Shown here in pieces: positions 5,403 to 28,518 of a stretch of DNA of 32,621 nt (its first letter is position 1; every line of letters begins with the position of its first letter). The position numbers were made by a program, and so were the translations under genes. The notes beneath the pieces are model-generated. The model ran no database searches, was not told the DNA's origin, and was given only the letters and a program-made list of their open reading frames with translations. The stretch covers positions 1 to 32,621 of the forward strand of contig JAQYSN010000010.1 in the NCBI GenBank assembly GCA_028725265.1, written 5' to 3'. This stretch comes from Spirochaetales bacterium. GTDB taxonomy: Bacteria > Spirochaetota > Spirochaetia > Treponematales > Treponemataceae.

Positions 5403-5481
5403 TTCACACAAAAAGACAAAAGTGATATATTAACTTCAGTCAATGGCGACGCTATCCCTAGTGGTGGTGTCGCCTTTTTTT
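5403..5481 (+). promoter_or_regulatory. carB promoter plus leader hairpin
   Basis: TTCACA (5403-5408)-N17-TATATT (5426-5431); hairpin 5445-5474 GGCGACGCTATC-CCTAGT-GGTGGTGTCGCC then T7. Confidence 0.7.
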
Positions 5482-5605
5482 GTGCACATTGACTTTGAGC
5501 GTCGGAGGTAAAAATCATACGTCCACGTCAAGGCCCGCTCACTTTGTTCGGCTTAAAGCCTTGACATGTCCGTTTGCCGATTTTTTTCAGGAGGTTAAAA
5601 TCGTC

Positions 5606-8600
5606 ATGCCACTAAATAAAAATATCCATAAAGTAATGATAATCGGTTCGGGTCCTATCGTAATCGGACAAGCAGCAGAATTTGACTACGCAGGAAATCA
5701 GGCTTGCAAAGCGCTAAAATCGCTCGGACTCGAAGTCTGTCTTGTAAACTCAAATCCTGCAACTCTTATGACAGATCCACACATGGCAGATGAAATATAC
5801 ATCGAACCGCTTACCCTAAAAACGATTCAGCGCATCATCGAAAAAGAAAAACCTGATTCGCTGCTTTCAACTTTGGGTGGACAAACAGCCCTTACGCTTT
5901 CTATGGAACTTGCGAAATCAGGATTTTTGGAAAGCCACAATGTTCGCCTTTTAGGAGCAAATCCTTCGACAATCGATAAAGCAGAAGACAGACAGATGTT
6001 CAAAGATATGATGGAAAAAATCGGAGAACCCTGTATCCCATCAAAAGTAGTAACAAACTATCAGGATGCGATTGATTTTGTCCACAATGAGATTGGTCTA
6101 CCGGCTATCATAAGGCCAGCCTTCACGCTGGGAGGAACAGGAGGCGGTATCTGCCACACCGAAAAAGAACTTGATGAAATCGTTCAAAACGGACTCCATC
6201 GTTCGCCAATTCATCAGATTCTGGTTGAAAAATGTATTTCAGGCTGGAAAGAAATCGAATTTGAAGTGATGCGGGATTCAAATTCTAACGTGATTACGGT
6301 TTGTTCTATGGAAAACGTGGATCCTGTCGGAGTTCATACGGGAGATTCTATCGTCGTAGCACCTACAGTAACGCTTGCAGATAAAGAATATCAGATGCTT
6401 CGAAGTGCTGCACTGAACATCATCAGTGAGCTTAAAATCGAAGGAGGCTGCAACTGCCAGTTTGCACTCAAACCAGACAGTTTCGAATATGCCGTAATCG
6501 AAGTCAATCCGCGTGTATCGCGCTCATCAGCACTTGCTTCAAAAGCTACCGGCTACCCTATCGCAAAAGTTGCAGCCCTTATCGCAGTTGGTTTTACATT
6601 GGATGAAATTCCGAACTTTGTCACAAAAAAAACAAAGGCTTGCTTTGAACCGGTTTTGGACTACGTCGTCGTAAAAATGCCTAAATTTCCATTCGATAAA
6701 TTCGTTTACGGAAAAAGAAGTCTGGGAACACAGATGAAGGCTACTGGCGAAGTCATGGCAATCGGACAAAATTTCGAAGAGGCCCTTTTAAAAGCAGTTC
6801 GCGGAGCTGAACTTAAAACAAAAGACCTTTCGTTGCCAGCGTTCAAAGACGAAAGTGACAGAAATATCATCCTTGCAGTGGGCGAAAGTACGGATCGCAG
6901 AATTTTCGCAATCTACGAAGCATTGAAACGCCAAATCATGACTGTAGAAGATGTCCACGAAATTACACAGATAGACAGATGGTTTTTGTGGAAGATTGAA
7001 AAAATTGCTCGCCAAGGACTTAAATTCGAACCAAAATCATTCAAGATGGTCGATACCTGTGCAGGCGAATTTAATGCTGAAACACCGTATTTTTATTCAA
7101 CAACCGAAGGCGAAAATGAAGCGGAACTTTTCCTGAAAGAACGCCGCGAAAGCACGCAGGGGGTATTTGCAACGAGCGAAGCGAGTTTCGAGCGAAACTC
7201 CCCCACCAAAGGTACCATCGTAGTTTTAGGATCTGGACCAATCCGAATTGGACAAGGAATCGAATTTGACTACGCTTCAGTTCAGTGCGTATGGGCCTTG
7301 AAAAAACTCGGTTACGAAGTTGCAATCATAAACAACAATCCGGAAACAGTTTCAACCGACTTTGACACAGCAGACAGACTTTACTTCGAACCTCTGACAC
7401 CAGACGACGTGATGAACGTAATCAGGACTGAAAAACCTATCGGAGTCGTCGTAGCTTTCGGAGGTCAGACAGCCATCAATCTAACGAAATTTTTGAGCGA
7501 ACAGGGAATCCAGATTTTTGGAACAAGTGCCGATGCAATTGACCTTGCCGAAGACAGGGAACGATTCGAAGAACTTTGTGATCGCCTTAAAATCGCCCGA
7601 CCTCACGGAATGACGGTATTTACCGAAGTTGACGCCCTCGAAGCGGCTGCAAGAATTGGATATCCGGTTTTGCTCAGACCTAGCTACGTTTTGGGCGGCC
7701 AGAATATGATTATCGCACACACTAGCGCTGATGTAAAAGAATACATGGCAATCATCTTGAATCAGAAAATCGAAAATCCTGTCTTGATTGATAAATATAT
7801 GGAAGGACTTGAACTTGAAGTTGACTGCATCTGCGACGGCGAAAATGTACTGATTCCGGGAATCATGCAGCACGTTGAAAGGACCGGAATTCACTCAGGT
7901 GACTCAATCGCAACATATCCTGATTGGGACATCAGCCCAGAAATGAGAGAAAAAATCATCCGACAGTCTACGGATTTAGCACTTGAACTTAAAACAAAAG
8001 GTATCGTAAACATTCAGTACCTGATTTATAAGGGAATTGACGGAAAAGAAGATCTTTATATTATCGAAGCAAACCCTCGTTCTAGCCGAACGGTTCCTTA
8101 TATCAGTAAAGTTACAGGAGTCCCGATGGTTGAACTTGCAACCAGGGCCATGATGGGTGAAAAGATTTCGGACATGGGATTTGGAACAGGCCTTTACAGA
8201 AAACCTGATTATTTTGCAGTTAAAGTTCCGGTTTTCAGCTTTGAAAAACTCAATGATGTCGATACGGCTTTGGGACCTGAGATGAAATCCACAGGCGAAG
8301 TTTTAGGAATTGCAAAAACTAGGATTGAAGCCCTTTACAAAGGGATGATGGCAGCCAAAATTAAATTAATAAGACCTGAAGCTTCAGATAATAGCAATCC
8401 TAATAGCAGACCAGGTTTTTTGTTTTCCGTGAGAAAAACAGACTTGCCCGAACTTCCGTCCATTGCAAAAAAATTTCACGAACTTGGCTTTGCTCTTTAC
8501 GGAACCGAAGGAAATGCCCACACGATTGCCGCATCTGGAATTCCTGTGACAAGAGTAAACAAGGTTCATGAAAACCATATCGATAACATCATGACACTGT

Positions 8601-8806
8601 TGGATTCTGGTAAAATCAGTTACGTTCTTTCGACATCTGCCAAGGGGCGAAATCCTGATGCAGAAAGCGTAAAGTTCAGGAGGCACGCCGTCGAAAAAGA
8701 CATCGAATGTCTTACCGCAATTGATACAGCAAATGCCATTGCAGAGTGTCTGTTTTCGAACTTCACGGAAGATAACGTAAGCCTCGTCGATATCAAAACA
8801 CTTTAG
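5606..8806 (+). CDS. carB: carbamoyl-phosphate synthase large subunit
   Basis: MPLNKNIHKVMIIGSGPIVIGQAAEFDYAGNQACKALKSLGLEVCLVNSNPATLMTD...; ATG at 5606 preceded by AGGAGG (ORF-track start 5480 is an upstream TTG in the leader). Confidence 0.97.
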   Translation: MPLNKNIHKVMIIGSGPIVIGQAAEFDYAGNQACKALKSLGLEVCLVNSNPATLMTDPHMADEIYIEPLTLKTIQRIIEKEKPDSLLSTLGGQTALTLSMELAKSGFLESHNVRLLGANPSTIDKAEDRQMFKDMMEKIGEPCIPSKVVTNYQDAIDFVHNEIGLPAIIRPAFTLGGTGGGICHTEKELDEIVQNGLHRSPIHQILVEKCISGWKEIEFEVMRDSNSNVITVCSMENVDPVGVHTGDSIVVAPTVTLADKEYQMLRSAALNIISELKIEGGCNCQFALKPDSFEYAVIEVNPRVSRSSALASKATGYPIAKVAALIAVGFTLDEIPNFVTKKTKACFEPVLDYVVVKMPKFPFDKFVYGKRSLGTQMKATGEVMAIGQNFEEALLKAVRGAELKTKDLSLPAFKDESDRNIILAVGESTDRRIFAIYEALKRQIMTVEDVHEITQIDRWFLWKIEKIARQGLKFEPKSFKMVDTCAGEFNAETPYFYSTTEGENEAELFLKERRESTQGVFATSEASFERNSPTKGTIVVLGSGPIRIGQGIEFDYASVQCVWALKKLGYEVAIINNNPETVSTDFDTADRLYFEPLTPDDVMNVIRTEKPIGVVVAFGGQTAINLTKFLSEQGIQIFGTSADAIDLAEDRERFEELCDRLKIARPHGMTVFTEVDALEAAARIGYPVLLRPSYVLGGQNMIIAHTSADVKEYMAIILNQKIENPVLIDKYMEGLELEVDCICDGENVLIPGIMQHVERTGIHSGDSIATYPDWDISPEMREKIIRQSTDLALELKTKGIVNIQYLIYKGIDGKEDLYIIEANPRSSRTVPYISKVTGVPMVELATRAMMGEKISDMGFGTGLYRKPDYFAVKVPVFSFEKLNDVDTALGPEMKSTGEVLGIAKTRIEALYKGMMAAKIKLIRPEASDNSNPNSRPGFLFSVRKTDLPELPSIAKKFHELGFALYGTEGNAHTIAASGIPVTRVNKVHENHIDNIMTLLDSGKISYVLSTSAKGRNPDAESVKFRRHAVEKDIECLTAIDTANAIAECLFSNFTEDNVSLVDIKTL
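7159..7204. repeat. in-frame palindromic insertion in carB
   Basis: GGGGGTATTTGCAACGAGCGAAGCGAGTTTCGAGCGAAACTCCCCC; encodes GVFATSEASFERNSPT between the two CarB halves. Confidence 0.65.
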
Positions 8807-8873: not shown

Positions 8874-8980
8874 TTGACATCGGCAAGAGGTTTAACTAGA
8901 ATCATATTTATTGATAAGCAAAGGCGCTTATTCGATTTGATGACAGAATTGTCATCGGATGGAATAGGCGCCTTTTTTTT
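8874..8980 (+). promoter_or_regulatory. pyrG promoter plus leader terminator-like hairpin
   Basis: TTGACA (8874-8879)-N17-TAGAAT (8897-8902); hairpin 8923-8972 GGCGCTTATTC...GAATAGGCGCC then T8. Confidence 0.85.
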
Positions 8981-8997
8981 GTTCATGGGGGATAATT

Positions 8998-10608
8998 ATG
9001 GCTAAGTTTATCTTTGTAACAGGCGGTGTCGTTTCAGGACTGGGAAAAGGAATTACAGCGGCAAGTCTTGGCCGACTTTTGAAATGTAGAGGCTTAAAAG
9101 TTGCATCGCAAAAACTTGATCCATACATGAACGTAGATCCTGGCACGATGAGTCCTTTTCAGCACGGCGAAGTTTTCGTAACAGATGACGGAGCTGAAAC
9201 AGACCTTGACCTCGGTCACTACGAAAGATTCATCGATGAAAATCTCACGCGCTATTCAAATCTTACAAGTGGCCGCGTTTACTGGAATGTCTTGAACAAG
9301 GAAAGACAGGGGGAATACCTTGGTCAAACAGTACAAATCATTCCTCACGTCACAAACGAAATCAAAGACTATATCATGAAGAATGCTGAAGTTAGCGGTG
9401 CCGATGTCTGCATCATTGAAATCGGGGGAACAACCGGTGACATTGAAAGCCAACCATTTTTGGAAGCCATCAGACAGCTCGCACTTGAAGTTGGCCGACG
9501 AAACTGCCTTTTTATTCACGTCTGTCTTGTTCCATACATCAGCGGATCCGATGAATTCAAATCAAAGCCAACTCAACATTCAGTAAAAGAACTTATGGGC
9601 GTAGGTATTCACCCTGACATCATTGTTTGCCGATGTGACAAAAACATTCCTGTTGAAATCCGAAAAAAGATTTCACTTTTCTGTAACGTAAGCGAAGACT
9701 GTGTAATCAACAATACGACCTGCAAAAGTCTCTACGAAGTTCCTCTTATGCTTCATGCACAAAATATGGACGATGTTACATGCCGAGAGTTAGGTTTTGG
9801 AAACAAAGCTGATTATCCAGAACTTGCATCTTGGTCAAAAATGGTCGAAAACATCCATAGCCGAAAAGGAAAAATCCAAGTTGCGCTTGTTGGAAAGTAC
9901 GTTAAACTCCACGATTCGTATCTTTCGATTGTTGAATCACTTAACCACGCAAGTTTTGTTGTCGGAAAAAATGTCGATATAAAATGGGTCGACAGCGACG
10001 AAATAACAGATGAAACGGCGCCGAAAATTTTTGAAGACTGTGACGGAATCATTTTACCAGGAGGCTTTGGACAACGCGGAATCGAAGGCATGATTTGCGC
10101 CTGTCGATATGCAAGAACTACAAAGCTTCCTTATTTTGGAATCTGTTTGGGAATGCAGATTGCGGTAATTGAATTTGCCCGCTCTGTATTGGGCTTTAAA
10201 GACGCAAACAGTCGCGAATTTGACGAGCTTTGTGAACACTCCGTAATCGATTTGATGAAAAATCAGGAAGGCGTAATAAAAGGTGGAACGATGAGACTTG
10301 GAAACTATCCGTGTATCGTTAAACCAGGGACAATTCTTTCAAAAGCCTATAAGACATCAGATTCAGAAGGAAAAAACATCATCAACGAACGCCACAGACA
10401 CCGCTACGAATTTAACAATGATTACCGCGAAAAAATGCAAAATGCTGGACTTATCATCAGTGGAACATCACCTGACGAAACTCTCGTTGAAGCTGTTGAA
10501 ATCGAAGGCCAGTTTCACATTGGAGTTCAGTTCCATCCTGAATTCAAGAGCCGTCCAAACCATGCAGGTCCATTGTTCGTAGAATTCTTGAAAGCCTGTA
10601 AATCATAG
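8998..10608 (+). CDS. pyrG: CTP synthase
   Basis: [61 protein letters not shown]...; class I glutaminase GICLGMQ. Confidence 0.98.
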
Positions 10609-10643: not shown

Positions 10644-11858
10644 ATGTACACCAAGCAGGAAGTTTTGGACTTTATCAATGAAGAGGACGTAAAATTTATC
10701 CGTCTTGCTTTTTTCGACATCAGAGGAAAACAAAAAAACATATCGATTATGCCTTCTGAATTGCCAAGGGCCTTTGAAGACGGAATTCTTTTCGATGCTT
10801 CTGCCATCTACGGTTTTGAAAGTCCAGATGGATCTGATTTGTTTTTAGTGCCGGATCCTTCTACAATCATGATAATTCCATGGCGACCTTCAACAGGAAA
10901 AGTCGTCCGTATGTTTTGTAATATAAAAACGACTGATGGACAGCCTTACGCAAAAGACTGCAGGACTCTTTTACAAAATTCTGTTAAAACCTTACAAAAA
11001 GAATGCGGAATTTCAATGATGATAGGGCCGGAAGTTGAGTTTTATCTTTTTAAACTTGATGAAAACGGAGAACCGACGGAAGAACCGTTTGATCATGCAA
11101 GTTACATGGACATTGCCCCGGAAGATAGGGGTGAAAATATAAGACGAGAAATCTGCTTTACGCTTGAACAGATGGGAATCACCCCGGAAGCAAGCCATCA
11201 CGAGGAAGGACCTGGACAAAATGAAATAGACTTCCGCTATTCTGATGCACTTACATCTGCTGACAACACATCAACTTTCAAATGGGTTGTATCAACAAAA
11301 GCTGCTGCAAACGGACTTTGGGCAACTTTCTCGCCAAAGCCAATTCAAAAGATGCCGGGAAACGGAATGCACATAAATATTTCCTACATCAATAATTCAT
11401 CCAACAGCTCAAACAACTCTGAGTTACTGCCATATATTTTAGGCGGAATCTTGAAACACATGAGCGAAATGACATACTTTTTCAATCCTTCTAAAGAATC
11501 GTACGACAGGCTTGGAAGTTTTAAGTCTCCAAAATACATTTGTTGGGGCAAACACAACCGCTCCGTTTTGATTAGGGTTCCGATTGAAAACGGAAAAAAT
11601 GGAACAAGATTAGAAATTCGTTCGCCAGACCCTTCATGCAACCCTTACATTTGTTTCAGCCTAATTATTCACGCCGCGTTGGATGGAATAAAAAACAAAA
11701 TCGAGCCTCCAAAAGCAATTGAAGACAATCTTTTTGAAATAACCAGCGCCGAAGCTGCAAAATTTGGGCTATGCCAACTTCCTTCATGTTTGGAACAGGC
11801 AGAAGAAATTGCCAAAAGCAGCGATTTTATAAAATCAGTCCTAAAAGGCATAATATAA
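10644..11858 (+). CDS. glnA: glutamine synthetase, type I-like (about 404 aa)
   Basis: GPEVEFYLF...HHEEGPGQNEIDFRY...GNGMHINISY...RLEIRSPDPSCNPY; RBS AGGAGG. Confidence 0.93.
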   Translation: MYTKQEVLDFINEEDVKFIRLAFFDIRGKQKNISIMPSELPRAFEDGILFDASAIYGFESPDGSDLFLVPDPSTIMIIPWRPSTGKVVRMFCNIKTTDGQPYAKDCRTLLQNSVKTLQKECGISMMIGPEVEFYLFKLDENGEPTEEPFDHASYMDIAPEDRGENIRREICFTLEQMGITPEASHHEEGPGQNEIDFRYSDALTSADNTSTFKWVVSTKAAANGLWATFSPKPIQKMPGNGMHINISYINNSSNSSNNSELLPYILGGILKHMSEMTYFFNPSKESYDRLGSFKSPKYICWGKHNRSVLIRVPIENGKNGTRLEIRSPDPSCNPYICFSLIIHAALDGIKNKIEPPKAIEDNLFEITSAEAAKFGLCQLPSCLEQAEEIAKSSDFIKSVLKGII

Positions 11859-11874
11859 AATAGGATACTTTCAA

Positions 11875-12444
11875 ATGGATACGGAAAGTCATAGCGTTTT
11901 GCTAGTTTCGAAAGACAAAAAAATTATATCTCAGATTTCAACTTTTCTTGTACCGCCGCTTTTTGAACTTAAAACTACATCTGATTTTAATGAGGCAAGA
12001 AGACTGGCAAATGAAAGGACATTCAACATCATCATTGTCGATTCAGGAGATGGCTACGAAACAGACTTTGCTATCAACGTTGCCGATTCATATTCTGCCA
12101 TCATTTTGATGGTTCCTTCAGAACATTTCGACGAAATTTCATATCGAGTCGAAGGCTACGGAATTCTAACAATTACAAAGCCCTTTGAAGCCTTTTATTT
12201 TTACAACATAATGAAAATTGCAATAGCAGTCCGTTATAAAATTCAGATTTTGTCATCGCAAACAACAAAGCTCAAAGTGAAAATGGAAGAAATTCGGTTA
12301 GTTAACCGTGCAAAAATGCTTTTGATGCAACATCTAAAAATGACAGAACAAGAAGCACACCGTTATATCGAAAAAGAATCCATGGACAGAGGCCTCAAGC
12401 GAATTGCAATGGCCGAAAAAATTATAATTACTTACCAAAACTGA
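11875..12444 (+). CDS. ANTAR-domain RNA-binding regulator with degenerate receiver-like N-terminus
   Basis: C-terminus EEIRLVNRAKMLLMQHLKMTEQEAHRYIEKESMDRGLKRIAMAEKII matches the ANTAR pattern; N-terminus is receiver-like but has SKDKK where the acidic pair should be. Confidence 0.88.
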   Translation: MDTESHSVLLVSKDKKIISQISTFLVPPLFELKTTSDFNEARRLANERTFNIIIVDSGDGYETDFAINVADSYSAIILMVPSEHFDEISYRVEGYGILTITKPFEAFYFYNIMKIAIAVRYKIQILSSQTTKLKVKMEEIRLVNRAKMLLMQHLKMTEQEAHRYIEKESMDRGLKRIAMAEKIIITYQN

Positions 12445-12446
12445 TT

Positions 12447-13997
12447 TCACACAGGGTACACACCGCTAAAGCATCCTTCGCACCAGCCTTCTTTGCAAAC
12501 GGATTCATTACAATCAAGGCAACTTTTCAAAGCTGAAATCATCCCTTTGCGACTAATAAAGGCAAGCGAATCAGCTCCGATTTCCTTTCTGATTTCTTCA
12601 AGTTCGTGAGTACTTGAAATCAACTCGTTTTTGCTCGGAGTATCAATTCCAAGATGGCATGGAAATTTTACCTGAGACGACGACACCTTGAAGTGGACCT
12701 CTTTGGCACCAGCGCGTCTCAAAATCTCTACAAGGCGCCGGCTTGTAGTTCCACGAACGATTGAGTCGTCAATCACGACAACCTTTTTCCCTTCAAGGTC
12801 GCTTTTTATCGCGTTGAGTTTTACGAAAACCATATCTTCACGCTCCTTTTGAGTCGGTGCGATAAAGGTTCTTCCTATGTATTTATTTTTTATAATGCCG
12901 GTAACGTAAGGGATTCCGCTTTCTTTTGCATAGCCCATCGCGGCTCCTATTCCACTATCAGGCACTCCGATTACTACATCGGCCCTTACAGTGCTTTCTT
13001 TCGCCAGTTCTTTTCCAAGCGCGTATCTAGCCTTTTGGACGGAAATGCCGTCAATCACAGAATCTGGCCGAGCAAAATAAACGTATTCGAAAATACAGGT
13101 TTCTTTCTTTTCATTGGCATACATAATCGATTTTATGCCATCTTGATTCACCACGACCATTTCGCCAGGTTCAATATCGCGGACAAAATCCCCGTTCACA
13201 GAATCAATCGCACAAGATTCGGAAGCAAAAATATAAGATATGTTGGGGGGCGTTCCCCCCTGCGCGCCCATTTCATTGGTCGCTACCCCCTGTGCGGGGG
13301 TTATGTCACAAGGTCGCTCAGGACCTATTTCGCCCCCCGCAACGCCCCCGTTTATTGTACCAAGGCAAAGCGGTCTGATTCCGTTTGGATCACGCACCGC
13401 AATAAGCATATTTTCCGTCATGATACAAAGAGCGAACGAGCCTTTTATAATGGAAGCAGTTTCTTTTACGGCCTCTACAAAGCGCATCTGCTTCTCTTCC
13501 TCGCTCGACTGCTCAAGGACGGTTCTTCCAAGGTGGCCGCCCTTTTCAATGTATTTTCGGACGATAAGTTTAAGGATAACTTCGCTATCGCTAGTCGAAG
13601 AAAACGTACTTCCGCAATCCTCAAGCATCTCCCTAAGTTCTGAATGGTTTACCAACTGACCATTATGGGCAAGTGCAATAGAACCGTTTTTGAATGAATT
13701 CAAGAACGGCTGGGCATTTTCTATCGTGCGGCCACCGGCTGTTGCGTAGCGAACATGGCCAAGCGCAATCGAACCTGAAAGCTTTTCGAAGTCTTGCATT
13801 TTGAACACTTCACTTACAAGCCCAATCCCTTTGTGCAGCCTAATTTGATTTTGTTTGCCTTCACAACTCTGACTTACGGCAATTCCGGCACTTTCCTGTC
13901 CCCTGTGCTGTAACGATGTCAGGGCAAAATATGACAAAACCGATGCATTTTCAGCTCCATAAATTCCAACAACGCCACATTCATCACGCAAACCCAT
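12447..13997 (-). CDS. purF: amidophosphoribosyltransferase
   Basis: MGLRDECGVVGIYGAENASVLSYFALTSLQHRGQESAGIAV...VVVIDDSIVRGTTSRRLVEILRRAGAKEVHF. Confidence 0.97.
   Translation of the reverse strand: MGLRDECGVVGIYGAENASVLSYFALTSLQHRGQESAGIAVSQSCEGKQNQIRLHKGIGLVSEVFKMQDFEKLSGSIALGHVRYATAGGRTIENAQPFLNSFKNGSIALAHNGQLVNHSELREMLEDCGSTFSSTSDSEVILKLIVRKYIEKGGHLGRTVLEQSSEEEKQMRFVEAVKETASIIKGSFALCIMTENMLIAVRDPNGIRPLCLGTINGGVAGGEIGPERPCDITPAQGVATNEMGAQGGTPPNISYIFASESCAIDSVNGDFVRDIEPGEMVVVNQDGIKSIMYANEKKETCIFEYVYFARPDSVIDGISVQKARYALGKELAKESTVRADVVIGVPDSGIGAAMGYAKESGIPYVTGIIKNKYIGRTFIAPTQKEREDMVFVKLNAIKSDLEGKKVVVIDDSIVRGTTSRRLVEILRRAGAKEVHFKVSSSQVKFPCHLGIDTPSKNELISSTHELEEIRKEIGADSLAFISRKGMISALKSCLDCNESVCKEGWCEGCFSGVYPV
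13243..13350. repeat. in-frame GC-rich repeat insertion in purF with terminal inverted repeats
   Basis: Minus strand GGGGGCGTTGCGGGGGGCG...CAGGGGGTAGCG...GGGGGGAACGCCCCC; encodes GGVAGGEIGPERPCDITPAQGVATNEMGAQGGTPPN between RPLCLGTIN and ISYIFASESCAID. Confidence 0.8.
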
Positions 13998-14007
13998 TTT
14001 TCAGTCC

Positions 14008-15615
14008 TTATCTATCGGCATCAAAAGCCAAATATTCATCAATCTGGAGGGCACATTCACGCCCCTCGGCAATCGCCCAAACCACAAGGGACTGTCCTCG
14101 ATGCATATCCCCACAAGCAAAAACCTTTTCTTTAGTCGTTGCAAAACCTGTCGGACTCGTTGAAAAAGATTTTGCAGGTTCCTGCGAATTTTGTATGACA
14201 GATTTTACGCATCCCCTTTCTCCAAGTTCCACGTCAAAAGCATTTGCAGTGTATTCTTCACAACCAACAAATCCAGCTGCTACCAAAAGAAGTTCACATG
14301 GAAGAATTTTTTCAGTTCCTTCTCGTTCAACAAGTTTTCGCACCCCATCGCCCATTTTAAATTCGACTTCCACAGTTTTCACTGCCGTAATGTGACCATC
14401 CCGACTGATAACTTCTTTTACAGTCGTTTCATAAATTCGTGGATCATGGCCGAATTTTGCAATTGATTCTTCAGCGCCGTAATCGACTTTCAAAACTTTT
14501 GGCCACTGAGGCCAAGGATTTGATGGACTTCGTTCAACTGGCGGGCAAGGCATCATTTCAATCTGCGTAACTGATGCACAACCTAACCTGATAGCAGTTC
14601 CGCAACAGTCGTTTCCTGTATCTCCGCCTCCAACGATTATTACATTTTTTCCTTCAAGTTCTATTCCGTAACGTTCTCGAAGCATCTGCGAAATCTGTCC
14701 GTTAGTCGGCTCCATATTGATTTGCTTTAAAGCGTCTCCCGTCGAAATTACGCACTTTGTTACAGATTTCAGAAAATCAACTGCAAACATCATTCCGCCT
14801 GAAGCGCCGTTATTTTCAGTATTCAGATTTTCTATTCCAGCAGCACTAAGACGCCTTGCTTTTTTCGCACCACAACAAAGTGCTACTGCATCGTATTCTG
14901 AATAAATGTGGTCAGCTGAAATTGAGCGTCCTACATCGGCGTTAAAAACAAACTCGACACCTTCTTCTTTCATCAAGTTGATTCGTCTTTCGATTATCGA
15001 TTTTTCCAGTTTCATATTCGGAATACCATACATCAAAAGACCGCCTGCTTTATCTTCACGTTCGAAAACCGTTACGTCGTGACCTCGTCGATTCAGCCAG
15101 TCGGCAACGGCCAGGCCGCTAGGTCCTGCCCCGATTACCGCAACTTTTTTGCCACTTCGATGGGCTGGAACTTGAGGCTTCATGTAGCCACTTTCAAAAG
15201 CCTTCTCGATTATGAAAAGTTCATTGTCGTGAATCGTAACGGCTCCGTCGCCGCAGACAGGATTTCCGCAGTTACAGGCTTTTTCACAAAGGGCAGGACA
15301 TACGCGGCCTGTAAATTCAGGAAAACTAGATGTCTTCAAAAGGCGCCAGGCTGCCATGTCAAATTGACCTTTGTACAACGCATCATTCCATTCAGGAATA
15401 TAATTGTGAAGAGGACAGCCTGTAACCATTCCAGCAAGCTTAATTGCAGATTGGCACATCGGAACACCACAGTTCATACAGCGGGCAGCCTGCTCACGAC
15501 GTTTTTCTTCATCAAGTTTAGGATGAAATTCCTTGAATGTAGCAATACGCTCAAGCGGAAGAATATTTCCGTTTTCAACTCTTTTATAATCCATAAATCC
15601 CGTTGGTTTTGCCAT
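14008..15615 (-). CDS. gltD: glutamate synthase small subunit
   Basis: MAKPTGFMDYKR...RCMNCGVPMCQSA...GCPLHNYIPEWNDALYKGQ...CPALCEKAC...; FAD and NADPH GxGxxG motifs. Confidence 0.97.
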   Translation of the reverse strand: MAKPTGFMDYKRVENGNILPLERIATFKEFHPKLDEEKRREQAARCMNCGVPMCQSAIKLAGMVTGCPLHNYIPEWNDALYKGQFDMAAWRLLKTSSFPEFTGRVCPALCEKACNCGNPVCGDGAVTIHDNELFIIEKAFESGYMKPQVPAHRSGKKVAVIGAGPSGLAVADWLNRRGHDVTVFEREDKAGGLLMYGIPNMKLEKSIIERRINLMKEEGVEFVFNADVGRSISADHIYSEYDAVALCCGAKKARRLSAAGIENLNTENNGASGGMMFAVDFLKSVTKCVISTGDALKQINMEPTNGQISQMLRERYGIELEGKNVIIVGGGDTGNDCCGTAIRLGCASVTQIEMMPCPPVERSPSNPWPQWPKVLKVDYGAEESIAKFGHDPRIYETTVKEVISRDGHITAVKTVEVEFKMGDGVRKLVEREGTEKILPCELLLVAAGFVGCEEYTANAFDVELGERGCVKSVIQNSQEPAKSFSTSPTGFATTKEKVFACGDMHRGQSLVVWAIAEGRECALQIDEYLAFDADR

Positions 15616-15644
15616 AAGTTTCTCCCTCGTATTAAAACTTCGCG

Positions 15645-18600
15645 TTAAGCCGTTACCTTTTTGAAAGCAGCCATGATTGCATCTTCATGTTCTACGCCAT
15701 TTTGTTCCTGCTCAGCTATTTCATTCATTATCTTTAAATAATCGTTCGGAATAATTTTCTTGAATTTACCTTTCCAATTTTTCCAGTTTCCAAGAATTTC
15801 TTTGGCCCTCTGACTACCGGTTTCTTTTGCATGCTCTTCGATAAGTGAGCGAAGATTCTGTTCGTCCGTTATATCGCGGAGAGTCGTGTTTTTATCATCA
15901 AGATCGTACATTTTGACTAGCTCATGATTAAGCCGCTTGTAAAGATCATGATTTTCATCAAGGACATAAGCGATTCCGCCACTCATTCCTGCCGCAAAAT
16001 TTCGACCGATTTTTCCAAGAATTACAGCACATCCTCCCGTCATGTATTCAAGACCGTGATCACCGCATCCTTCAATTACGGCTGTGACACCCGAATTTCG
16101 TACGCAGAATCGCTCTCCTGCGACGCCGTTGATAAAAGCTTTTCCGCTCGTTGCCCCGAAAAGAGCAACGTTTCCGATGATAATATTTTCATCAGCCTTG
16201 CCGCCAAAATCCTTAGCCTTTGTTACGGTAAGTTTTCCGCCGCTCAGCCCCTTTCCAAAATAGTCGTTTGCCTCGCCTTCAAGTTTCAAAGTTACACCCT
16301 TTGGAACGAAAGCTCCGAAACTCTGCCCTGCACCACCTTCACAACTGATGACATAAGAATCGTCGTTCAGTTTGCCCCTAAACTTATTCTGAATCTCACT
16401 TCCGAAAATAGTTCCGAACGTTCTGTCCGTAGACTGAATTTTCACAGCATTTATTTCCTTCTTTTTGTCGAGCATAGGAAGGAGGAATTTCAAATCGGCA
16501 GTCTTTTCAAGAGCGAAATCGTATGTATCGCGATTCTTCTTCCAATCCTCATCACAAAAAGCTATGAGTCGGCTCAAATCCAAAAGATTTGCCCTCTTGA
16601 ATCCCTGCTTTTCTTTCATTTTGAGCAAATCACTTCTTCCGCACATTTCTTCAATGCTTCGAAGTCCAAGCTTTGCCATATATTCCCTAAGTTCCTGAGC
16701 GATGAACTTCATGAAATTTTCGACATATTCAGGTTTACCCGGAAAACGTTTTCTAAGTTTCTCGTTCTGTGTTGCAACTCCAAAAGGACATGTATCAAGA
16801 TTACAAACCCTCATCATTGCACATCCCATCGTAATAAGAGGTGCCGTTGCAAAACCAAATTCTTCGGCCCCCAAAAGGCAGGCTATTGCAACATCTCGAC
16901 CGCTCATCAGTTTTCCGTCAGTTTCTATTACTACCCGGCCACGTAAACCGTTTTGAACCAAAGTCTGATGCGCTTCCGAAAGTCCAAGTTCCCAGGGGAG
17001 TCCTGCATGATGAATTGAACTGATTGGAGCCGCACCCGTTCCACCGTCGTGTCCTGAAATCAAAATGACCTGAGAGCCAGCTTTTGCAACTCCCGCTGCA
17101 ATCGTTCCGACCCCAGCTTCACTTACAAGCTTAACTGAAATTCGGGCTGATCGGTTTGCATTTTTCAAGTCGTAGATGAGCTGAGCCAAATCTTCAATTG
17201 AATAAATATCATGATGTGGAGGCGGTGAAATAAGACTTACGCCTGGAGTTGCAAGACGAGTCTGTGCAATCCATGGATAAACTTTTTTTCCAGGAAGATG
17301 TCCGCCCTCTCCAGGTTTTGCACCCTGAGCCATTTTTATCTGAATTTCTTTTGCACTCAAAAGATATTCTTCGGTTACACCAAATCTGCCTGATGCAACT
17401 TGTTTTATTGCACTATTGTACTCGCTTCCAAGACGTTCTGGTTTTTCGCCACCTTCACCTGAATTTGATTTTCCGTGCAAATGATTCATCGCTACGGCCA
17501 TGCATTTATGAGCCTCTTCGCTGATAGAACCATACGACATCGCACCAGTTTTGAATCGCTGGACGATACTTTCAACGCTTTCAACTTCATCAATCGGGAT
17601 TTCACCTTTCGAAGCAGAATAATTTAGATCAAGCATTGCTCGCAATGTGTGCGGTCTGTTCGTGTCGTCAACAAGATTTGTATATTCCTTGAATCTTTTA
17701 TAGTCGCCGTTTCGAGTTGCTTCTTGAAGTGCAATGATAGTTTCAGGATTATAAAGATGATCTTCAGCATTCGGTCCTCGTCTGAATTTGTGATAACCGA
17801 CACTATCCAAATGCGTATTTTCGGTAAGACCTCGCTCGTTCCATGCCTGTTTATGGTTATATATGATGTCTTCCTCGATTTCCTTAAGACCGATTCCTCC
17901 GACTCGGCTCACTGTGTTGGTAAAGTACTTTTCGATAACATTCTGTGCGATTCCAACTGCTTCAAAAATCTGGGCCGACTGATAGGACTGAATTGCACTG
18001 ATTCCCATTTTTGCCGCAATTTTTACGATTCCGTTGATAAGGCCTTTATTGTAATCATCAATCGCAGTGTGATAGTCTTTGTCCAAAAGTTTTTGGTCGA
18101 TAAGCTCTGCAATTCCTTCATGCGCAAGATATGGATTTACAGCTCGTGCGCCATAAGACAAGCACATAGCAGCCTGATGTACGTCACGAACTTCGGCACT
18201 TTCGAGAATAATCGAAATCTTGGTTCTTTTTTTTGTTCTTATAAGGTACTGTTCGACTGCACTGACTGCAAGCAAAGAAGGAATTGCCGCATGAGATTTG
18301 TCTACTCCACGGTCACTCAAAATTATGATGTTATATCCTTCCTTGTAAGAAGAATCAATTTGTTCAAAAAGCTTGTCTAGGGCACACTCAAGACATTTTC
18401 CGTCTGAACTTGCATTCAACTCTGCAACATCCATCAAAATAGAAAGAGTTTTAGCCCTAAGCCCTTCCTGGTTCAATGCCGCTATTTTTATAAGATCTGT
18501 TCCGGTAAGAATCGGATTATTGATTTCCAAAACTCGGCAATTTTTTCCCTTGATATTCAGCAAATCACCGTCGCTTCCGACATAGACGGTCGTATCTGTT

Positions 18601-20177
18601 ACGATTTTTTCCCTCAGGCTATCAATTGGCGGATTAGTTACCTGTGCAAAAAGTTGCTTGAAATAACTGTAAAGACTCGGATGTTTATCCGACATGCAGG
18701 CAAGCGGCGTATCAACACCCATCGAAGCCGTAGGTTCACTTCCAGTTCTTGCCATCGGCAAAACCATCTCATTTAAATCTTCATAGTTCCATCCGAACGC
18801 CCTATAAAGATGATTTCGTTCTTCCAAAGTCGAAACTGGAATTTTTTTGTTCGGAATTTTGACATCAGCAAGATGGACAAGATTCTGATCAAGCCATTCT
18901 CCATACGGATACTGATTGGCGTATGTATTTTTTATTTCATCATCACTGATGAGCCTTTTTTGGACGGTATCAACGAGGAGCATTCTTCCAGGCATCAATC
19001 TTGATTTTTTAACTATTTGCGATTCTGGAATATCGAGAACACCAACTTCACTTGAAAGAACAAGCATATTATCTTTTGTAATGAAATATCGGCTCGGCCT
19101 AAGTCCATTTCGGTCTAAGGTTGCTCCCAAAATATCGCCGTCCGAATACAAAATTGCGGCAGGTCCGTCCCAGCTTTCCATCATGGTTGCCCAATAGTGA
19201 TAAAAATCACGTTTTGACTCAGTCAAAGTATCATCATGCTTCCAAGGTTCTGGAATACATACCATTACGGCAAGAGGGAGCGGCATTCCGTTCATCACAA
19301 AATATTCTAGAGTATTATCAAGCATTGCTGAGTCAGAACCCGTTACGTCAACTTCGCCATTTCGAGCAATCATTCTGTCAACATTTCCTCGAATCGTATT
19401 GATTTCTCCGTTGTGGGCGATAAATCTGTTAGGATGTGCTCGCTGCCAACTAGGATTTGTATTCGTTGAAAATCGCGAGTGAACGATAGCAAGGCAGGAT
19501 TCGTATTCATTGTCCTGCAAGTCATCATAAAAAGTACGAAGCTCATCCACCAAAAACATTCCTTTGTAAACGATTGTTCGGCTGGAAAGCGAGCATACGT
19601 AGGTTTTTTCCGCAACGCCTCCATCTGAGGCTTTTTCAAATTCGCGTCTTAAACTATAAAGTCGTCGGTCAAAATCCAATCCTTTTTCGCAGCTTTTTGG
19701 ACGTTCGATAAAACCTTGCCAGATTTGCGGCATACAATCCCGCGCCTTTTTACCCAATACATCAGCATTTACAGGAACACATCTCCATCCCAAAAGATTC
19801 AATTGTGCCTCGGTACAACATTTTTCAAAGCGACTGATTTCACACTTTCTCATCTCTTCATCAGAAGGAAAGAAGAACATCCCGATACCATAGTCACGTT
19901 CATCCACGAGAGTTTTGCAAGCCTTTCCGCTACATGAAACTATCTGACCTTCCTTGCAAACACGTTCAAAAAATTTATGTGAGATTTGGAGCAAAATACC
20001 AACACCATCGCCTGTTTCGCCCGAGGCATCTTTTCCTGCCCTATGTTCTAGTTTTTCTACAATTTCCAATGCATTTTCAACAACATTATGGGATTTGATT
20101 CCATCAATGCTTACAACAGCACCGATTCCACAGTTATCGTGTTCAAAACTTGGTTCATAAAGTGTTCGTTCCATCAT
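15645..20177 (-). CDS. gltB: glutamate synthase large subunit
   Basis: 1510 aa; [11 protein letters not shown] class II amidotransferase N-terminus, [33 protein letters not shown] FMN domain, C-terminal GXGXG domain. Confidence 0.98.
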   Translation of the reverse strand: [1510 protein letters not shown]

Positions 20178-20249
20178 TAACCACCTATGATATTAGTTTA
20201 TTTAGCAAAGTGCTTTTTAGTTTTGTTAAAATCCGCTTGAAAAAACAAA

Positions 20250-20400
20250 AGCCGCACGCACAGTTTGATTGCTGTACATGCGGCTCCTTTGCCGACTTTG
20301 AGATTTTCAAAACAAAAAAAGGCCGTAGATATAGCGTATATATCTACGACCTCTTTGCCGTATTTAGTTCATAATAGCGAATTTTTTTACAATAAGTCAA
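20250..20400 (-). promoter_or_regulatory. gltB promoter plus tandem leader hairpins
   Basis: Minus strand TTGACT (20400-20395)-N18-TATTAT (20376-20371); hairpin 1 20352-20320 AGGTCGTAGATATA...TATATCTACGGCCT+T7; hairpin 2 20285-20250 AGCCGCATGTACAG...CTGTGCGTGCGGCT+T-rich. Confidence 0.85.
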
Positions 20401-22440: not shown

Positions 22441-24357
22441 TTAGTACGCATCATCATGTACTCCACTTATGGCACGTCCGCTCGGTTCGTCCATGTTTTT
22501 CCAGGCTTCGTCCCATTCAAGAGCTTTCGCCGTTGAACAGGCAACTCCCGCTTCGTGTGGAACGCATCGGGCCGCACTGTCGCTAGGAAAAAGTTCTGAA
22601 TAAATTTCCCTGTAATAATATTCTTCTTTAGTTTTTGGCGGATTCACAGGGAAGCGGTTTTCCCTTCGAGCAAATTCTGCATCGCTGACTTTTTCTTCCG
22701 TAATTTTTTTTAACGTGTCGATCCAGTTGTAACCGACACCGTCACTGAACTGTTCCTTTTGTCTCCAGCAGATTTCTTGCGGAAGGATATCCTCAAAAGC
22801 TTTCCTCAAAATCCATTTTTCCATTCGCTGTCCGTTCGTTCCGCAATGCTCTGAATTTTTATCCAGGCGGATGCTCATTTTGTCCGTCGGATTCAGAGTC
22901 ATCGCAATGTCGATAAAATCTTTGTCGAGGAATGGAACTCGGCCTTCGACGCCCCATGCCATAAGACTTTTGTTCGCCCTAAGGCAATCGTAAAGATGGA
23001 GTTTGCTCATCTTTCTGACCAGTTCTTCGTGAAATTCCTGTGCATTCGGCGCTTTGTGAAAATACAGATATCCGCCGAAAAGTTCATCGCTTCCTTCGCC
23101 TGAAAGCACCATTTTGATTCCCATTGATTTGATGACTCGTGCAAGAAGATACATCGGAGTCGAGGCACGCACCGTCGTAATGTCGTAAGTTTCGATGTGG
23201 TAGATTACGTCGGGTAGTGCGTCCAAGGCTTCCTGAATCGTGAAATGAACTTCGTGATGAACAGTCCCGATGTAGTCAGCCGCTTTTTGAGCTGCAACCA
23301 AGTCTGGGCTTCCCTCCAATCCGACTGCAAAAGAGTGTAGCTGAGGCCACCAGGCACTTTCCTTGCTGTCTGTTTCGATTCGTTTTTTGCTGTATTTTTG
23401 CGTGATGGCGGCAATTATGGAACTATCCAATCCGCCGCTCAAAAGAACACCGTAAGGAACGTCGCTCATAAGCTGTGCTTTAACCGCATTTTCCAATCCG
23501 TTTCTGACTTTTTCGATTATTGAAGGATTGACGACTTGTCCTTTGTCGTCGGTTGCTTTCGGCGCATTTTTAACAGAATCAAAGTTTTCCCAGTCACGAT
23601 GATACCATTTGACCGGAGTTGCCACAGAGCAGGCGTTGCGGGCGGCGTGTGATCCGTCGTTCGCTTTGCGAACTAACGAGTTTTCTTGCGAAAACTCGCG
23701 GGCAGAGGGGGTAGCGGAAGCTCGATCGCTTTGCGAGAGAGCTGAAGCGAGGGGGAGACTTCCCCCGCCTGACCAAAGATAGCTTCCGTTCGGGAATTCT
23801 TCGATTGAAACGCAATTTCCCTCCAAAGCTTTCAGTTCGCTTGCAACATAGTATCGTCCCATTTTGTCCCAGCCCTGGTAAAGCGGAATTACTCCGATTT
23901 CGTCCCGTGCGATAAGGTAGGTGTCGTTTTCGCTGTCGTAAAGGGCGAAGGCAAAAATTCCTGAAAGTGTTTCTATCATTGAGGTAAAATCGCCTGATTC
24001 GCGGTATTTCTTGTATAACGGAATTATAACTTCGCAGTCGCTTCCTGTAAGAAAATTGTAGCTGTCTTTTAATTCATTTCTGATTTCTTTGTGATTGTAG
24101 ATTTCTCCGTTTGCGGCAAGGATGATTTTTCCGTCCTCAGAAACAAGAGGTTGTTTTCCCGAAAGTGGGTCAACGATGCTCAATCGTTCATGGCTCAAAA
24201 TCGCATTATTGCCTGTGTAGATTCCGCTCCAGTCTGGTCCGCGGTGGCGGATTTTTTTGCTCATTTCCAAAACCTGACTTCTAAGTTGTTCTCGAAGTCC
24301 CTCTGCAATCGGCTGACTGCCGCTGTTCAAATCAAATGCTCCAACGAATCCACACAT
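22441..24357 (-). CDS. asnB: asparagine synthase (glutamine-hydrolysing)
   Basis: MCGFVGAFD..., IRHRGPDWSGIY, GVLLSGGLDSSIIAAI, VLSGEGSDELFGGY, WGVEGRVPFLDKDF; C-terminus PSGRAISGVHDDAY. Confidence 0.97.
   Translation of the reverse strand: MCGFVGAFDLNSGSQPIAEGLREQLRSQVLEMSKKIRHRGPDWSGIYTGNNAILSHERLSIVDPLSGKQPLVSEDGKIILAANGEIYNHKEIRNELKDSYNFLTGSDCEVIIPLYKKYRESGDFTSMIETLSGIFAFALYDSENDTYLIARDEIGVIPLYQGWDKMGRYYVASELKALEGNCVSIEEFPNGSYLWSGGGSLPLASALSQSDRASATPSAREFSQENSLVRKANDGSHAARNACSVATPVKWYHRDWENFDSVKNAPKATDDKGQVVNPSIIEKVRNGLENAVKAQLMSDVPYGVLLSGGLDSSIIAAITQKYSKKRIETDSKESAWWPQLHSFAVGLEGSPDLVAAQKAADYIGTVHHEVHFTIQEALDALPDVIYHIETYDITTVRASTPMYLLARVIKSMGIKMVLSGEGSDELFGGYLYFHKAPNAQEFHEELVRKMSKLHLYDCLRANKSLMAWGVEGRVPFLDKDFIDIAMTLNPTDKMSIRLDKNSEHCGTNGQRMEKWILRKAFEDILPQEICWRQKEQFSDGVGYNWIDTLKKITEEKVSDAEFARRENRFPVNPPKTKEEYYYREIYSELFPSDSAARCVPHEAGVACSTAKALEWDEAWKNMDEPSGRAISGVHDDAY
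23620..23768. repeat. in-frame palindromic/GC-rich repeat insertion in asnB
   Basis: GGCGTTGCGGGCGGCG...GTTCGCTTTGCGAACTAACGAGTTTTCTTGCGAAAACTCG...AGAGGGGGTAGCG...GGGGGAGACTTCCCCC; encodes an ~50-aa low-complexity insert between EEFPNGSYLW and KWYHRDWENFD. Confidence 0.8.
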
Positions 24358-24417
24358 AAAATTGCTCCTGTTATGAAAATGGCTTTGAGCGACATTTTAC
24401 CCGCTCGAACAAAAAAA

Positions 24418-24513
24418 AGAGGCCGTAGACAGTGACTCTTATTAAGAATCATTATCTACGACCTCTTTGTCGCTTACTTTTCACATTATCATTAAATTTT
24501 ATTATGATGTCAA
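24418..24513 (-). promoter_or_regulatory. asnB promoter plus leader hairpin
   Basis: Minus strand TTGACA (24513-24508)-N17-GATAAT (24490-24485); hairpin 24466-24418 AGAGGTCGTAGA...TCTACGGCCTCT then T-run. Confidence 0.85.
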
Positions 24514-24543
24514 GATAGGTGAATTTTTAATTTCGCTCGCACT

Positions 24544-24976
24544 GCTGTACCTTCCCGCGAAAATTGGACTTTTCTCACGCGATTTCGCATGCGCTCAAAG
24601 CGTTCGATAGCCCATTTTCGCTCACGGTGCCTCACCTTTTTTTCCATGCGCGCGCTGTCGGTAAAATTTATGAGCCAGATTCCGGCAGCAGTTGCGGATT
24701 GTGCGGTTCCCGATGGAAGCGGAAGTTTTTTTATTTCCTCCCATCCATCCTTGCTAAATGCATGGGAAGAAGAACCGCGGAATCGGGGTTTTCGTTCGCT
24801 TTCGCGAACTATCGAGTTTTCGCAATACGAAAACTCGCGGCATCTGCACTCACGGTGCTGCACCTTCCCGCGAAAATTGGACTTTTCTCACGCGATTTCG
24901 CATGCGCTCAAAGCGTTCGATAGCCCATTTTCGCTCACGGTGTCTCACCTTTTTTTCCATGCGCGCGCTGTCGGTA
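24544..24976. repeat. composite intergenic repeat (unit A - unit B - unit A)
   Basis: CCTTCCCGCGAAAATTGGACTTTTCTCACGCGATTTCGCATGCGCTCAAAGCGTTCGATAGCCCATTTTCGCTCACGG at about 24551 and 24863, separated by the double-hairpin unit 24794-24837. Confidence 0.92.
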
Positions 24977-25045
24977 AGTATCTTTTTCATTCATCCTTGC
25001 AAAATGCATAGGAAGCAAAAATAATTGCAAAATTAAAATCATCGC

Positions 25046-25210
25046 TTGACAATTTTTTTTAGAAACGATATAAACAAACTATAAACGACAATGAGGTCGC
25101 AGGAATGGTGTTCTTGCGACCTTTTTATTTTTAAAACATATTCGGCAAAGACGTCGTATTTCTGGCTCTGATGTACACAGATCCAAAAATGCGACGTCTA
25201 TTTTTATTTT
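25046..25210 (+). promoter_or_regulatory. glnN promoter plus tandem leader hairpins
   Basis: TTGACA (25046-25051)-N17-TATAAA (25069-25074); hairpin 1 25094-25122 AGGTCGC...GCGACCT+T5; hairpin 2 25149-25199 AGACGTCGTATTT...AAATGCGACGTCT then ATTTTTATTTT. Confidence 0.88.
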
Positions 25211-25245
25211 AGGTGGTTTTTGTACCACAAATGGAGTGTAAAACT

Positions 25246-27351
25246 ATGGACGAAGTAACTTCAATCTTTGGTGAAAATGTTTTTAACGAAACAGTAATGA
25301 AGGCTCGGCTGCCAAAGGAAACTTACAAGCAGCTGATGAAAACAATCGACGATGGCGAAAAACTTGACAAGAGTGTTGCCACTGTAGTTGCTAATGCAAT
25401 GAAAGATTGGGCAATCGAAAAAGGTGCCACTCATTTTACGCACTGGTTTCAGCCGCTTACAGGAATTACAGCAGAAAAACACGACAGTTTTATCCAACCA
25501 ATCGAAGGTGGCAAAGTAATAATGGAATTTTCCGGCAAGGAACTCGTTCAAGGAGAGCCGGATGCTTCAAGCTTCCCGAACGGAGGAATCCGAGCAACTT
25601 TTGAAGCAAGAGGATACACTGCCTGGGATCCGACTTCATACGCTTTCATCAAAGACGGCACATTGTGCATTCCAACGGCCTTCTGCTCGTACACCGGAGA
25701 AGCTCTCGATAAAAAAACCCCGCTTTTACGCTCAATGCAAGCAATTTCGAAAGAAGCCGTCAGAGTCCTCAAACTTTTTGATGGAAACGAAGACGTAACA
25801 TCAGTAAAAACAACAGTCGGACCTGAGCAGGAATACTTTTTAGTTGACAAAGAGGTTTACGACAAACGCGAAGACCTCATATACACAGGACGAACATTGT
25901 TCGGTGCAAAAGCTCCAAAAGGTCAGGAACTTGAAGATCACTATTTTGGTATGATAAAACCTCGCGTTCAGGATTTTATGAAAGATTTGAACAAGGAACT
26001 TTGGAAACTCGGAATCCTTGCCAAGACGGAACACAACGAGGTCGCTCCTGCCCAGCACGAACTTGCACCTATTTTCAGCACAACAAACCTTGCCTGCGAT
26101 CACAACCAGCTCACGATGGAACTCATGAGAAAGACAGCCGCAAAACACGGTATGGTTTGTCTTTTGCATGAAAAACCTTTTGCAGGCGTTAACGGAAGCG
26201 GTAAGCACAACAACTGGTCGATTTCGACTAACACAGGTAAGAACCTTCTTGACCCAGGTGCGACCCCGGAAAGCAACGCACAGTTCTTGCTCTTCTTGTG
26301 CGCCGTAATCAAAGCCGTTGACGAATACCAAGACTTGCTTCGAATTTCAGTCGCATCAGCCGGAAATGACCATCGTCTTGGAGCAAATGAAGCACCACCA
26401 GCCATCATCTCTATCTTCCTTGGAGATGAACTTTCCGCAATTTTGGACAGTATCGAAAAAGGAATTCCATACGGAAAGCACGAAAAAGAAAAAATGAAAA
26501 TTGGCGTTACCGTTTTGCCTGAATTCAACAAAGATACAACGGATCGAAACAGGACATCACCTTTTGCATTTACAGGAAACAAATTTGAATTCCGAATGCT
26601 CGGCTCTAATGAATCAATTGCATGCGCAAACGTATTCTTGAATACAGCAGTAGCAGAAGAACTCAGTCAGTTTGCTGACGTACTTGAAAAGAGCAAGGAT
26701 TTCAACGGCGACTTACACGAACTGATTCTCAAAACAATCAAAGAACACAAACGAATTATTTTCAACGGAAACGGATACGACGATTCCTGGGTAAAAGAAG
26801 CTGAAAAACGAGGCCTTTTGAACCTCCGCTCAACTCCAGAAGCTTTGCTCCACACTTTGGATGAGAAAAATGTCAAACTTTTCGAAAAATTCGGAGTTTA
26901 CAGCAAGGTAGAACTAGAAAGCCGCAATGAAATCCACAATGAAAACTATTCAAAAATCATCAACATCGAAGCTGAAACGATGCTAGAAATGGCTAAAAAG
27001 GATATCTTGCCTTGTGCAAGCAAATTTGCATCAAAACTTGCCCAAACAATCAACTTGAAAAAATCTGCTTGCAGCGAATGTGACTGTAGTTACGAAGCTG
27101 AAATGCTCAAAAAGGTAAGCACAATCACAAGCTCAATATACGCAAAAACAAGTGCCCTTGAAAAAACTGTACTTGATGCCAGAATCCTTGCCGATAAGGG
27201 TGATTCAAGCAAAACTGCCCTCTTCTATCGGGAAAAAGTTTTTGCAGCAATGGGAGAACTCAGAGCCGTTGCTGATGAACTTGAAGTAATCACACCAAAA
27301 GAATTGTGGCCGTTCCCAAGTTACGGAGACTTGCTTTATAGCGTTCGCTAA
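25246..27351 (+). CDS. glnN: glutamine synthetase type III
   Basis: [86 protein letters not shown] at 25246 follows GGAG (ORF-track start 25213 is an upstream GTG). Confidence 0.95.
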
Positions 27352-28370: not shown

Positions 28371-28518
28371 TTGACAATATTTTTTGCTTAGGCTATAAAG
28401 AGAATATCAAAGACAAAGGCGTCATAGATTTATTTCTGTGACGCCTTTCTTATTTTACGGCGGCGATGGTGTCGGGCATTTGTGCACAGTGCTTGAAATC
28501 ATCGTCGCTTTTTTATTT
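28371..28518 (+). promoter_or_regulatory. amtB-PII promoter plus tandem leader hairpins
   Basis: TTGACA (28371-28376)-N17-TATAAA (28394-28399); hairpin 1 28417-28446 AGGCGTCATAGA...TCTGTGACGCCT; hairpin 2 28460-28508 GCGGCGATGGT...ATCATCGTCGC then T6. Confidence 0.88.

Follow-up and report, generated by a model that had tools for sequence, protein, structure and literature searches.

What does an ANTAR protein with a degenerate receiver domain regulate when its gene lies directly behind that of a glutamine synthetase (GS) homologue, and through which RNA? The question is raised by a 32,621-nucleotide stretch of a Spirochaetales bacterium genome (contig JAQYSN010000010.1 of assembly GCA_028725265.1), here called the window. 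As judged from sequence comparison, the protein very probably turns on genes that make or use glutamine, and does so through one small 5′ RNA hairpin. We consider it highly likely that it is an antiterminator of the NitR and AmiR kind and stands at the centre of a glutamine regulon, with one predicted hexaloop per terminator.

The protein, a proposed trans-acting antiterminator, is encoded on the plus strand at 11875–12444 (189 amino acids from an ATG start) and consists of a pseudo-receiver, a coiled coil and an ANTAR domain. The C-terminal ANTAR domain recognized in a preliminary description of this DNA scores 56.2 bits against a Pfam cut-off of 27.3 (PF03861; residues 132–184, positions 12268–12426, plus strand), and this is the sole ANTAR gene detected in the source genome, which is 87.7% complete. 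The same description had placed the gene 16 nt behind glnA, in an operon preceded by a leader terminator. Both points hold: glnA stops at 11858, and the operon, in the order pyrG–glnA–antar, lies downstream of a leader at 8912–8981. An AlphaFold2 model, a check proposed at that stage, was built on a 32-sequence alignment and reached a pLDDT of 91.7, with a confident receiver fold that is followed by a single long helix and the ANTAR bundle. Its best matches in the PDB are Rv1626, EutV and AmiR, and it superimposes on chain B of RNA-bound EutV with a TM score of 0.77. Relatives of the protein come mostly from rumen Treponema, and our Treponema comparison set comprises the window locus and 47 relatives (L002–L048), 48 loci in all. 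Lys147, Glu158 and His162 are invariant in these 48 proteins, one cut sequence excepted; allowing for a numbering offset of 2, they would correspond to the RNA-contact residues Lys149, Glu160 and Tyr164 of EutV.

The receiver domain falls below the Pfam threshold (15.8 bits compared with 30.2). Motifs reported earlier are present in the window protein: SKDKK replaces the acidic pair (residues 12–16), VDSG follows at 55–58, and a P-S lies near the conserved Thr/Ser position (VPS, 80–82). The lysine of TKPF (101–104), described as retained, is indeed there, but it is not a family-wide trait, as the position of Lys102 holds lysine in only 20 of the 48 Treponema proteins. Asp56 is invariant in all 48, and the conserved Thr position is occupied by Thr in 27. 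The acidic pair that binds Mg2+ in phosphorylated response regulators is absent from every one of the 48, its positions being [T/S/A][K/R/H], and among the ANTAR proteins encoded beside glnA in other spirochetes, several have Asn or another residue even in place of the phospho-acceptor Asp (VNAPL, INSPL). Conventional phosphotransfer through this receiver therefore appears very unlikely, in line with the doubt first expressed about it.

A candidate source of the signal is encoded next door. GlnA* (10644–11858, plus strand; 404 amino acids) is a GSI-α homologue that we propose as a ligand-sensing partner. The ANTAR gene directly follows the glnA-type gene, as in the NitR type of arrangement, in 48 of 48 Treponema loci, with a gap of −1 to 79 nt. 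Where complete, GlnA* is 380–409 amino acids long, about 35–40 residues short at the C terminus relative to enzymes of 443–446 amino acids, and the window protein scores below the curated NCBIfam cut-off (TIGR00653; 392 bits compared with 429). In the GSI-α literature, Glu304 (Bacillus subtilis numbering) is catalytic, Arg62 serves feedback and the C-terminal thong helices join the two rings. In GlnA*, the flap Glu304 has become Lys in 47 of 47 sequences, Arg62 is lost in 46 of 47 and the thong helices are absent with the missing tail, whereas none of the 47 departs from the others at those metal, glutamate and ATP residues that were examined. A GSI of the Treponema family that is unlinked to ANTAR (genome G093) keeps Glu304, Arg62 and full length. 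A search of 15 ANTAR-negative relatives, and of G339, a genome discussed below, found no close GlnA*; two of the ANTAR-negative relatives (G001 and G093) have only a divergent GSI. Two additional GS genes, both of type III size, occur in the source genome and may be available for catalysis. A universal truncation of GlnA was considered and rejected, as other spirochete families mostly have versions of 423–436 amino acids.

GlnA* may thus signal to the ANTAR protein by binding glutamate, glutamine or ATP and holding or releasing the pseudo-receiver, an extension of the antitermination reading to which we give slightly less than an even chance; its assignment as a GS-derived sensor is correspondingly tentative. 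The circuits AmiC–AmiR, NasS–NasT and GS–TnrA/GlnR are precedents, and the constant adjacency to antar, the absence of close GlnA* from ANTAR-negative relatives and the loss of the flap Glu, Arg62 and tail around intact substrate and metal residues all favour it. However, co-inheritance could merely reflect an operon, and the glnA–antar pairs of other spirochete families keep Glu304 in 12 of 15 cases, so the flap Glu has not been lost throughout. The NitR gene of Clostridium saccharobutylicum, moreover, presumably lies beside a glnA that encodes an ordinary GS. Alternatively, GlnA* could have a changed substrate, as in GmaS, or be a partly active enzyme. A γ-glutamylamide ligase is conceivable since enzymes of the GmaS type, which have no flap Glu, are still active on amines; in that case the ANTAR protein would sense nitrogen by way of a different partner, for example the AmtB-fused PII domain, whose gene belongs to the regulon. 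Yet GmaS also lacks Asp50, which GlnA* keeps, and the strict linkage of glnA* to antar speaks against this version, which we regard as unlikely.

The antitermination reading itself rests on the leaders. A composite scan found seven hexaloop–terminators of the form AA[A/T]G in the window (scores 20–24), whereas dinucleotide-shuffled windows gave a mean of 0.4 matches and a top score of 15.5; the family of leader terminators noticed at the outset thus exceeds chance. An eighth element, ahead of carB, was overlooked by the scan, added by eye and then recovered by a covariance model, R1. It spans 5434–5483 (plus strand), with the hexaloop AATGGC (5442–5447) on a 3-bp stem and an overlapping terminator at 5445–5474; carB, for the large subunit of carbamoyl-phosphate synthase, follows at 5606–8806 (plus strand; start assigned to the ATG at 5606 behind GGAGG). 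The other seven were found by both scan and covariance model. The pyrG leader (8912–8981, plus strand) has a single hexaloop, AAAGGC (8920–8925), overlapping its terminator, and a predicted promoter (TTGACA at 8874, TAGAAT ending at 8902); pyrG, for CTP synthase (8998–10608, plus strand), is the first gene of pyrG–glnA*–antar, an order kept in many relatives. Two tandem elements on the minus strand, one at 20313–20364 (AAAGAG on a 6-bp stem, with terminator) and one at 20242–20298 (AAAGGA, with its own terminator), precede gltB–gltD–purF (12447–20177, minus strand), which encodes the GOGAT subunits and amidophosphoribosyltransferase, as assigned from its open reading frames (ORFs) and the gene order in relatives. 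On the same strand, a leader at 24413–24476 (AAAGAG, with terminator) precedes asnB, for a glutamine-dependent asparagine synthetase (22441–24357). A second tandem pair, on the plus strand at 25082–25129 (AATGAG, with terminator) and 25139–25204 (AAAGAC, with its own terminator), lies ahead of a glnN-like gene for a type III GS (25213–27351, plus strand; a 712-amino-acid ORF as listed). The last, the amtB–glnK leader (28407–28454, plus strand; AAAGGC, with terminator), has −35 TTGACA and −10 TATAAA boxes just upstream and is followed by a gene whose product combines an ammonium transporter with a PII domain at its C terminus (28531–30288, plus strand; start assigned to the ATG at 28531). R1 recovers all eight and a ninth leader of the source genome, that of carA, on another contig; a further match in this genome (C144; 28.5 bits), near secF at the end of a contig, was left unassigned.

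Elsewhere in the window, the interval 24520–25010 between asnB and glnN contains imperfect direct repeats, which show up as near-identical translations of overlapping ORFs. A long stretch of the ORF at 128–796 (SAEETLLxFLKREKxAGLKGGIYHKIQIDLTYN) recurs in similar form in that at 1922–2608, which resembles a chimeric or broken copy, and adjoining small ORFs at 1188–1795 resemble, by eye, a PIN-domain toxin and a RelB/DinJ-type antitoxin.

The leaders share a common design, a stem enclosing a six-base loop, A-A-[A/T]-G-N-N, with a C–G closing pair, and each element, terminator included, is 40–94 nt long. Loop bases 4–6 together with the 3′ arm of the hexaloop hairpin form the 5′ arm of the intrinsic terminator, which makes hairpin and terminator mutually exclusive. 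Among 48 distinct sequences, 85% of the cells in the hexaloop stem pair, and 61 cells carry two-sided changes compared with 18.4 ± 4.2 after shuffling. The covariation score of the stem is 0.611 compared with 0.192 when shuffled, and all slid registers give 0.222 or less. A1 and G4 of the loop were search criteria; covariation was not. The composite scan did demand the inner stem pairs 1–3, leaving only pairs 4 and 5 and the type of change free of selection, and these two outer pairs show 17 and 7 two-sided changes. A scan without the stem requirement returned 91 sites, which include ordinary terminators and antisense copies, and 49 of them have a stem of at least 3 pairs (background, 6.1%). 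RNAalifold, run on the whole leader alignment, yields the hexaloop unprompted. Minimum free energies of the leaders range from −20 to −38 kcal/mol, compared with −5 to −21 kcal/mol when the hexaloop is forced, and in the window the terminator conformer is 11–18 kcal/mol more stable than the hexaloop conformer, so a protein would be needed to reach the hexaloop state. The forced folds retain only the upper terminator stem, which is the geometry of the published antitermination model.

Characterized ANTAR targets, the amiE, nasF and eut leaders, have two hairpins, P1 and P2, and EutV requires a fixed P1–P2 spacing in vitro, which would lead one to expect that a P1 exists here too and that the protein needs both hairpins. 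The promoters argue otherwise. In 60 of 73 leaders (82%) a promoter matches at least 9 of 12 consensus bases, compared with 3.4% of random positions and 12% of shuffled upstream sequences, and in these 60 the predicted −10 box ends only 6–15 nt before the hexaloop stem. The RNA would thus begin only a few bases from the hexaloop, too close to accommodate a canonical P1, which gives one hexaloop per terminator. P1-like hexaloops upstream are not enriched, occurring in 6 of 73 leaders compared with 22 of 213 control segments, and inspection of a second spirochete family likewise leaves no room for P1. The tandem elements of gltB and glnN do not constitute such a pair either, as a complete terminator separates the two, unlike P1–P2. 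We therefore rejected the dual-hexaloop reading as very improbable. The single-hexaloop design, which goes beyond the preliminary description, bears on work by Walshe (2022). In that study the EutV dimer was found to contact hexaloops singly, the minimal target was reduced to a single hexaloop, and the question was raised of how common the use of such sites is, although EutV antitermination in vitro failed when the P1–P2 spacing was altered and still required the dual arrangement.

The composite scan collected 73 leaders from the window and its 47 relatives. They precede gltB (16), carB (14), pyrG (8), and carA, asnB, glnA and glnN (7 each), with smaller numbers at purF (3), dapF (2), amtB (1) and a gene for a CxxCxxCC-domain protein (1). 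As predicted from these assignments, almost every target serves to make glutamine, to spend it (the glutamine amidotransferases) or to bring in nitrogen for it. For wider searches we based R1 on the hexaloop and not on the terminator because the two leader classes pair in registers that differ by three columns. It gives 89 matches in the window and the relatives’ loci, one of them antisense to another. Possible further regulon members are urtA of a urea ABC transporter (L019:11857–11914), dapF (L004:2079–2169 and L006:809–876) and the CxxCxxCC-domain protein gene (L046:1551–1620), each with R1 matches ahead of it.

Co-occurrence across the phylum had been suggested as a check. At E ≤ 0.003, R1 matches in 38 of 393 Spirochaetota genomes, and 37 of these 38 carry an ANTAR gene, compared with 77 of 393 (19.6%) overall (Fisher P = 3.5 × 10−29, uncorrected for kinship). 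The remaining 40 ANTAR-positive genomes have no strict match; some are regained at E ≤ 0.1 or by the composite scan and others are not. At the looser threshold, 8 of 15 further ANTAR-positive genomes match, and 15 of 16 ANTAR-negative relatives from the same family have no match, the lone one being at E = 0.045. The expectation that leaders always accompany an ANTAR protein, with leader-bearing genomes that lack one named as its refutation, held in all but one genome, G339. This assembly (93% complete) has leaders at pyrG, glnN, asnB and gltB and no detectable ANTAR gene or glnA*; in this genome (loci L153 and L154) purF directly follows pyrG, and the absence of ANTAR may reflect either an assembly gap or a real loss.

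Constitutive attenuators, or cis-sensing elements such as a riboswitch, leader peptide or T-box, with no link to ANTAR, would also explain a strong terminator in every leader, but we give this almost no weight, because the leaders match no Rfam family at the curated cut-off (two sRNA matches only, far below it), elements this short could hardly hold a leader ORF or an aptamer, hexaloops with A1 and G4 are what ANTAR proteins are known to recognize, and the leaders co-occur with ANTAR. The evidence instead favours the trans-acting antiterminator originally proposed, with putative RNA binding.

The sequences show mutually exclusive structures, covariation, one hexaloop per terminator, the promoter position and co-occurrence; from these we infer RNA binding, dimerization and antitermination, as well as the direction and signal of the response, as follows. 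A σ70 promoter would start each target operon, and the first 20–25 nt or so of RNA would fold into one small A1/G4 hexaloop hairpin. As long as no active protein is present, the RNA would fold into the terminator, by far the more stable of the two structures. An ANTAR dimer, joined through the long helix, would clamp the hexaloop and so keep the terminator from closing at its base; with the upper stem then detached from the U-tract, RNA polymerase would read through into carB, pyrG–glnA*–antar, gltB–gltD–purF, asnB, glnN, amtB–glnK and carA. The receiver, lacking its Mg2+ site, would be a docking or dimerization module and not a phospho-switch, and the system probably responds to nitrogen or glutamine status. 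Because antar lies in an operon that it would control, it would be autoregulated, as supposed from the start; in the second spirochete family (f12) a leader precedes the glnA–antar operon itself, which supports this.

The spirochete protein is probably a relative of NitR that works in the same way. The NitR regulator named at the outset does exist: a review describes it as an ANTAR protein of C. saccharobutylicum that induces GS and GOGAT genes by antitermination under nitrogen limitation (PMC6316151, citing Stutz 2007). ANTAR control of GS and GOGAT genes is common to both, as far as that description goes; the spirochete system differs in its host, its wider regulon (carA, carB, pyrG, purF, asnB, glnN and amtB) and its altered GlnA*. 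EutV and its targets (Ramesh 2012; Walshe 2022) share the protein fold, the A1/G4 hexaloop and the overlap of the distal hairpin with the terminator, whereas the spirochete leaders have one hexaloop per terminator at the predicted 5′ end and no P1, and the receiver lacks the acidic pair. AmiR of Pseudomonas aeruginosa is likewise a pseudo-receiver–ANTAR protein, with His at the position of EutV Tyr164 and a similar N-x-AK-x-LLMQ helix; unlike in AmiR–AmiC, the co-encoded candidate partner is a GS homologue and not an amide-binding protein. As in the GS–GlnR and GS–TnrA systems of Gram-positive bacteria, a GSI-α shares an operon with a nitrogen regulator (GlnR) and GS acts as sensor, here as a proposal. 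Unlike those systems, the output would be a putative RNA-binding antiterminator, and GlnA* lacks Glu304, Arg62 and the C-terminal tail.

ANTAR antitermination is already known; what is new here is the proposed regulon in spirochetes, its design with a single hexaloop and the altered GlnA*. Spirochetes are not among the ANTAR phyla listed in a 2012 commentary, and our literature search found no paper linking ANTAR and Treponema. The leaders would extend ANTAR regulons to spirochetes and to enzymes that use glutamine in making nucleotides and asparagine. Close to 90 candidates for natural antiterminators with a single hexaloop, supported by covariation and equipped with predicted promoters and terminators, in genomes that usually have one ANTAR gene, now open the question of Walshe (2022) to direct in vitro test with one protein and leaders of less than 100 nt. 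The altered GlnA*, absent from the preliminary description, provides a specific candidate for the sensor protein. It is plausible, though we would not call it probable, that this GS homologue, having lost the catalytic flap Glu, the feedback Arg and the ring-joining tail, is a dedicated ligand sensor for an ANTAR protein with a pseudo-receiver, and that the latter reads a single 5′-terminal hexaloop per leader and so turns on genes for making and spending glutamine. If true, this would be a three-part, phosphorylation-free nitrogen switch of a kind not described before.
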